The position numbers and the translations under genes are program-made. From Kiritimatiellia bacterium (GTDB lineage: Bacteria > Verrucomicrobiota > Kiritimatiellia > SLOV01), in contig SLOV01000138.1 in assembly GCA_007132345.1 (NCBI GenBank), forward strand, positions 1-43,427: a stretch of DNA of 43,427 bases, in the 5' to 3' direction. Every line of letters begins with the position of its first letter. Positions within the stretch are counted from its first letter, which is position 1. This document shows positions 15,707 through 16,623 of this stretch, in pieces. The notes beneath the pieces are model-generated. The model was not told the DNA's origin, ran no database searches, and worked only from the letters and a program-made list of their open reading frames with translations.

Positions 15707-16066
15707 TCAGCCGGCGCCCCTGATTCGAATCCCCTTCTCTTCCACGATCCACAGATGCTTTTTCAGCGTTTCAGTGGGAAGCAGGGAAACAAATCGGTGC
15801 GCGAGGGCCAGCACCGCCGGCTTTGACTGATCTTTCGACCTTATTACCACGATTCCGCCGAACTCTTCTGGAGGATAAGCGATGATGTTGGCAAAATCTG
15901 TATCAAGCGTGACGAATGCGCGAGATTCCGCCTGACACACAGAGGCTATGTCGGAATCGGGCTGGCCTCCCAAATCTTGATCAAGAACAGACATTGCGTT
16001 GTGGCCGACCGCGCGAAGAATCGCGCAGATTTCGAATGGAAGATTCTCGTCGACCTTGAAGTCCAA
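15707..16066 (-). CDS. DUF5615 family PIN-like toxin
   Basis: MDFKVDENLPFEICAILRAVGHNAMSVLDQDLGGQPDSDIASVCQAESRAFVTLDTDFANI; PIN-like acidic residues. Confidence 0.88.
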   Translation of the reverse strand: MDFKVDENLPFEICAILRAVGHNAMSVLDQDLGGQPDSDIASVCQAESRAFVTLDTDFANIIAYPPEEFGGIVVIRSKDQSKPAVLALAHRFVSLLPTETLKKHLWIVEEKGIRIRGAG

Positions 16067-16074
16067 GGCCTACC

Positions 16075-16305
<231 letters not shown>

Positions 16306-16472
16306 TCAAACCTACCATGATTGGGGTGTCAGGGAAATCTCTTTGCATCCCCCGCGGTTCCTGCCTCCCTGTCCGCAACACACCTTCGCGTATCGACGGG
16401 CGCATGCCCGTCATGGAGGGGCGAGTTACACGAGCCCGCGAGCGGGTGGTCGTGGCTTTGAACCCATGCGAT

Positions 16473-16481
16473 GGCGTTGAC
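16473..16481. repeat. Target site duplication, left copy (GGCGTTGAC)
   Basis: Exact 9-bp match to 16615-16623, directly abutting the terminal inverted repeat. Confidence 0.8.
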
Positions 16482-16614
16482 CAGCAATTCTCAGTATGGC
16501 CCGGAACCAGGCCTTCGGGCCTGCTGAAGCAGGTACTACGAACCGTTTTTCGCCTAGTCTTCGCCCGTTTGTAGTCCCGCCTTCAGGCGGCAAGGGCCAT
16601 AATGAGAATTGCTG
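16482..16614. mobile_element. MITE-like 133-bp non-autonomous element with REP/BIME-like interior
   Basis: Terminal inverted repeats CAGCAATTCTCAGTATGGCCC / CAGCAATTCTCATTATGGCCC (20/21); internal GTAG-headed palindromes on opposite strands; exact 9-bp TSD. Confidence 0.85.
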
Positions 16615-16623
16615 GGCGTTGAC
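16615..16623. repeat. Target site duplication, right copy (GGCGTTGAC)
   Basis: Exact match to 16473-16481. Confidence 0.8.

Follow-up and report, generated by a model that had tools for sequence, protein, structure and literature searches.

The window analyzed here, a stretch of 43,427 nucleotides from a Kiritimatiellia bacterium (contig SLOV01000138.1), contains a 133-bp element that is very probably a composite MITE, one with the ends of an ISNCY-family DDE element, moved in trans with a 9-bp target-site duplication (TSD), and with a host RAYT-type REP doublet as cargo amplified by the DDE route. In many bacteria the same ends enclose REP pairs of different hosts, which suggests that sequences normally attributed to RAYT enzymes are being spread by a DDE transposase.

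The element was read directly from the sequence at window positions 16482-16614. It is bounded by 21-bp terminal inverted repeats (TIRs), complementary at 20/21 positions, and an exact 9-bp TSD lies outside both, so that the 133-bp MITE with a perfect duplication described in an earlier sequence-only reading was confirmed. The two GTAG-headed palindromes that this reading had placed on opposite strands were also found. They face each other and form an inverted pair, as in REPIN and BIME doublets. The parts of the element and its flanks are as follows.

16473-16481, no strand: left TSD copy GGCGTTGAC, read directly; 9 bp is the sole elevated register over 65 copies
16482-16502, + strand: left TIR CAGCAATTCTCAGTATGGCCC, ISNCY-family IS type; its core CAGCAATTCTCATT is also present at intact IS ends
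16503-16519, + strand: left arm, from the TIR to REP 1, including part of a private palindrome at 16508-16523
16520-16539, - strand: REP 1 GTAGTACCTGCTTCAGCAGG, head inward, related to the REPs flanking the RAYT gene on contig C128
16540-16570, no strand: spacer between the REPs, with the highest divergence in the family (about 0.09)
16571-16590, + strand: REP 2 GTAGTCCCGCCTTCAGGCGG, head inward, identical (100% over 24-26 bp) to RAYT-flanking REPs of the same genome; lowest divergence in the family (0.016)
16591-16593, + strand: short right arm, CAA
16594-16614, - strand: right TIR, read on the - strand as CAGCAATTCTCATTATGGCCC
16615-16623, no strand: right TSD copy GGCGTTGAC, read directly and covered by the 65-copy register test

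The GTAG pattern had two matches in the window and never occurred twice in 100 shuffles. The element strand folds far more strongly than its shuffles (z = -5.9). An Rfam search gave no match inside the element and one sub-threshold guanidine-II match outside it, which was taken as chance. A third palindrome of the sequence-only reading, CAGGCC-TTCG-GGCCTG (16508-16523), is present in this copy but was rejected as a family feature; it is private to the window copy, and the family consensus at this place is GGGTTCTTCGGG.

We then analyzed the copies of the element in the window's genome, a 3.53-Mb draft of 410 contigs that is 91.5% complete. Allowing up to 3 mismatches, we counted 90 TIR matches on the forward and 88 on the reverse strand, against 0 for a reversed control pattern. 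Copies were sampled through loci, and 65 distinct ones had both flanks readable. The length was exactly 133 bp in 52 of these 65. Flank identity was 0.747 at the 9-bp register and 0.26-0.32 at registers 4-8 and 10-13. The TSDs matched at 9/9 positions in 24 copies and at 8/9 in 15, giving 39/65 at ≥8/9, compared with about 1% for randomly re-paired flanks. Since the 9-bp register alone is raised, we conclude that the TIRs bound the moving unit and that 9-bp duplications are made. Both the duplication length and the TIRs as copy boundaries, proposed from a single copy, thus held across the sampled family. Flanks matching at ≤4/9 positions were found in 14 of the 65 copies and could be explained by recombination between copies or by assembly joins. 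The family has the properties of MITEs, being short, non-coding and TIR-bounded, with many copies of one length and a TSD of fixed length.

Within the phylum, the TIR (≤1 mismatch) was found in 24 of 390 sampled genomes. In the window's genome (G000) and in G053 each strand had over 40 matches, which suggests bursts in single lineages. Copy numbers are underestimated, because most of the genomes are draft MAGs whose assemblies are interrupted at these repeats. A second composite type was observed in the window's genome, a 154-bp element (L014:1346-1499, contig C90) that adjoins a 133-bp copy. Its TIRs are degenerate versions of those of the window element, and its interior, GTCATCCCGAGC...GGAATGACA, is different.

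A 9-bp TSD had been taken to imply a DDE transposase, and intact insertion sequences with a common TIR core, a 9-bp TSD and an invariant D/D/E triad are consistent with this. We refer to them as ISNCY-family, a name that follows the annotation of one record, WP_013335080.1 (Gloeothece verrucosa), and not ISfinder. Scanning genome contigs for the TIR gave matches in many phyla. Pairing of TIRs in the scanned contig loci yielded MITEs only, and the IS was found through ORFs beside contig-end TIRs. On a Methylococcaceae contig, a 1451-bp element has the window-element TIRs and encodes a 449-aa transposase; its TSD is unreadable because the contig ends on its outer left side. The 14-bp TIR core CAGCAATTCTCATT is present at both ends of the intact IS. 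Relatives in cyanobacterial plasmids sit between TIRs starting CAGCAATTCTCATTTT, with perfect 9-bp TSDs around the IS in Anabaena cylindrica (GGCAACGAC) and Calothrix (GAAATATAC), and a Gloeothece copy has the TIRs with non-matching flanks. In the window's class, transposase relatives are encoded in 42 of 287 sampled genomes. Four loci of this class (L412, L414, L415 and L420) have TIR pairs with variants of the core and perfect 9-bp TSDs. At two other loci, L264 and L265, the transposases had no convincing TIR pair within the stretch examined.

Residues D132, D221 and E345 were invariant among the aligned transposases. A weak match to DDE_Tnp_1 was obtained for 5 of 6 transposases (best 3e-5), a PDB sequence search gave no meaningful match, and a search of viral contigs gave no relative. 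A full-length transposon with matching TIRs, for which the sequence-only reading had called, was found in relatives (cyanobacterial plasmids, the window's class and the Methylococcaceae contig) but not in the window's own genome. No match to the ISNCY-type transposase was present in that 91.5% complete draft, and the transposase moving the element is therefore inferred from relatives; a same-genome partner is not a defining requirement of a MITE. The ISNCY-family IS has the TIR core and the 9-bp TSD in common with the window element. It codes for its own transposase, probably of DDE type, and lacks a REP pair, whereas the window element is non-autonomous and 133 bp long.

The interior REPs of the element are those of the host's RAYT system. 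A search for a RAYT gene, also suggested from the sequence, found one in the window's genome on contig C128 (NF047646, 86.3 bits against a cut-off of 80). It is directly flanked on both sides by pairs of GTAGTCCCGCCTTCAGGCGG and GTAGTACCGGCTTCAGCCGG. The MITE interior and these flanking REPs are 100% identical over 24-26 bp, which extends beyond the hairpin. Sampled REPs of the window's genome lay within 135 bp of a TIR in 117 of 134 cases, in a sample biased by the many loci fetched by TIR. The mobile unit here runs from TIR to TIR with a 9-bp TSD, so it is not the REP pair alone that moves, and free REP pairs without TIRs also exist in this genome.

We compared 23 MITE interiors, drawn from 12 genomes, with the sampled RAYT flanks; 7 had a match in a flank of their own genome and 16 in at least one flank of any genome, counts that are lower bounds because 30 of the more than 100 listed RAYT loci were fetched. 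Shuffled interiors gave 0 same-genome matches in 10 rounds. The host-flank control is not fully clean, because it gave one unexpected match; the sequence involved is another repeat, adjacent to the element, and occurs beside another RAYT as well. Over 52 full-length copies, REP 2 diverged least, by 0.016 (permutation P 0.0002), followed by REP 1 at 0.046, the TIRs at about 0.06 and the spacer at 0.09. Stem pair 41/50 of REP 1 showed three compensatory double changes and three broken ones. This pattern is compatible with lasting constraint on the REPs of the chromosome or with exchange between them and the element.

The same type of TIR was found around many different palindrome pairs. At least eight unrelated doublets lie within matching TIRs in Verrucomicrobiota-type MAGs, Acetobacteraceae and others. 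We term them REP-like because several have no established link to a RAYT of the same genome.

GTAGTCCCGGCTTTAGCCGG, heads outward: G057 and G062
GCGGACAGGAGTGTCCGC: G057
GGACGACACGGAGGTCGTCC: G053
GTAGGCCGGGTGCCCTCACCCGGC: G058
CGTCATGGCCGGACTTGTTCCGGCCAT: G059 (Acetobacteraceae)
GTAGCCGCCACCGTTAGGTGG: G049
GTCATCCCGAGCG-type: G044
GGTAGGGCG-type: G007 and G056

TSDs matching at ≥8/9 positions were found in 20 of 26 elements of G059, 12 of 20 of G057 and 5 of 5 of G058, and in 42 of 63 paired elements in a broad scan. In G059, 25 of the 33 sampled CGTC REPs adjoin one or both TIRs, and a search of this genome with the RAYT model gave no match. Most sampled REP doublets in several genomes, including the CGTC-type REPs of this RAYT-model-negative Acetobacteraceae genome, are thus inside or beside the TIRs of MITEs with 9-bp duplications. 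Matching TIRs surround different doublets across hosts, which supports the reading of a BIME between DDE-type ends and shows the class to be recurrent. The hybrid element class offered in the sequence-only reading holds more widely than was proposed there.

Two smaller variations were observed among these elements. In some copies of the GCGGACA-type MITEs of G057 (L160, L193) the duplications read as 8 bp, TCTCCCTC and CTCCCGTG, rather than 9. At L234 (G053, JANYBP010000011.1) a 262-bp MITE copy has an extra insert bounded by TGTAGTGTCCC and GGGACACTACA; this insert is apparently a further small element that lies inside the MITE, and the outer 9-bp TSD is intact.

A BIME captured between DDE-type ends had been proposed, and both the BIME interior and the DDE ends are supported, while the route of entry can be described only conditionally. 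The REPs may have come into the MITE when a RAYT inserted them there, or when the MITE recombined with REPs of the chromosome. The composite would then have been amplified in trans by an ISNCY-type transposase, which made the 9-bp duplications, and the IS may since have been lost from the window's genome or be unassembled in it. The capture event was not observed, as no MITE with an intact REP-free interior was recognized in this genome; one 58-bp copy resembles a deletion derivative. As the 133-bp unit was probably amplified by the DDE route, most REP copies sampled here would be passengers and not RAYT insertions.

It is possible, although on the doubtful side, that REP pairs insert into existing TIR palindromes as preferred targets and that the TIR element moves independently, the association reflecting RAYT target choice. 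REP dimers in palindromes have been described as insertions into target palindromes (PMC3733652), and one backbone in G057 apparently holds two unrelated pairs, with similar left arms and an identical right end in an alignment judged by eye. However, 52 of 65 copies are 133 bp long with the REPs at a constant place, and no intact empty TIR element was recognized. The near-uniform length and constant REP position indicate that the composite itself was amplified, and insertion into target palindromes can be true of its origin only.

We consider it unlikely that two systems act on the element, with a DDE transposase copying the unit, a RAYT or recombination renewing the REP module, and the REPs being functional and not neutral cargo. 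If this were true, the MITE of every host would be dressed with the host's own REPs.

A descent in the opposite direction, in which the REPs derive from the MITE, is decidedly unlikely. The hairpins would have been adopted later by RAYTs, or the free REPs would be decayed, end-less MITE copies similar to QMITE2. The free REP pairs of the window's genome do have the head spacing of the MITE interior, 49-51 bp where both partners are intact, and small QMITE2 copies are REP-like and were taken as truncated MITEs (PMC5896051). However, unrelated palindromes occupy matching TIRs, even within one backbone. The GGACGACACGGAGGTCGTCC REP, packed in MITEs in G053, is mostly free beside RAYT genes in G056 and G007, and the RAYT-flanking REPs in the window's genome form clusters without TIRs.

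That a RAYT (HUH, Y1) moves the whole 133-bp unit, with incidental or target-derived duplications, is highly improbable. RAYT genes are indeed present in the genome and the REP pair inside the element is of the RAYT type, but the duplications have variable sequence and lie exactly at the TIRs in 39 of 65 copies, a register that contradicts this mechanism; moreover, IS200/IS605-type enzymes are described as having no TIRs and making no larger duplications (PMC2817692), and the ends and 9-bp TSD are common to an intact DDE-type IS. It is scarcely credible that the hairpins are ordinary MITE palindromes resembling REPs by chance, since, although MITE interiors are often palindromic and the whole element folds strongly, the identity with host RAYT-adjacent REPs extends past the hairpin and the shuffled interiors lacked same-genome matches.

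For the composite MITE, the closest precedents are QMITE2 and the REP dimers inside palindromes. QMITE2 of Coxiella burnetii (Wachter et al. 2018, PMC5896051) is a MITE with TIRs, 7-11 nt direct repeats and an internal GTAG REP. It resembles the window element in being TIR-bounded with direct repeats and a GTAG REP and in being dispersed in one genome. Judged by its description, it differs in being known from a single species, in having no DDE partner named in the text consulted, and in not being shown to have TIRs in common with MITEs that carry other REPs. Di Nocera et al. 2013 (PMC3733652) described REP dimers inside palindromes, namely GTAG-15 of Anabaena variabilis and CGTC-1 of Halothiobacillus, the CGTC REPs being apparently without a transposase. 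As here, the dimers are regularly enclosed by an inverted repeat, and REP-free palindromes were not found in two species. There, however, the dimers are read as insertions into palindromic targets, the consensus sequences differ from the window-element TIRs, the term 'target site' is absent, and no TSD is reported in the text consulted.

REPIN/BIME doublets associated with RAYTs (Nunvar 2010 PMC2817692; Bertels and Rainey 2011 PMC3116915) are likewise inverted GTAG-headed pairs matching the host RAYT-flanking REPs, whereas the window element ends in TIRs, has a 9-bp TSD and is apparently spread by a DDE enzyme. In the TIRtron (PMC3733652), TIRs flank a tyrosine transposase gene. The one RAYT locus considered in this respect, on C128, has REPs and not the window-element TIRs at its sides, within the extent of L126. 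ISPpu9 (PMC8450116), an IS targeting REPs, has an IS-REP link in common with the window element, but it inserts into REPs, while here the REPs are inside the transposon. A literature search, with most subscription papers outside its range, gave no report of one TIR family with different REPs across hosts.

With these results, the spread of REPs by a DDE route can be tested directly. They also mean that REP copy number cannot always stand for RAYT activity, and they suggest that TIR-bounded transposons may also underlie other 'REP dimers within palindromes'.

Two observations concern the neighborhood of the element in the window. Just upstream, at 16414-16438, lies TGGAGGGGCGAGTTACACGAGCCCG, which is found two more times next to a different RAYT-like gene (L288, contig C127) and is probably a second repeat family of the window's genome. 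The element is also located about 180 bp upstream of a putative toxin/antitoxin-like pair spanning 15707-16310 on the - strand. On inspection of the sequence, the ORF at 15707-16066 (-) resembles a PIN-like toxin of the DUF5615 type, and upstream of this ORF the stretch at about 16200-16300 resembles a DUF433 antitoxin.
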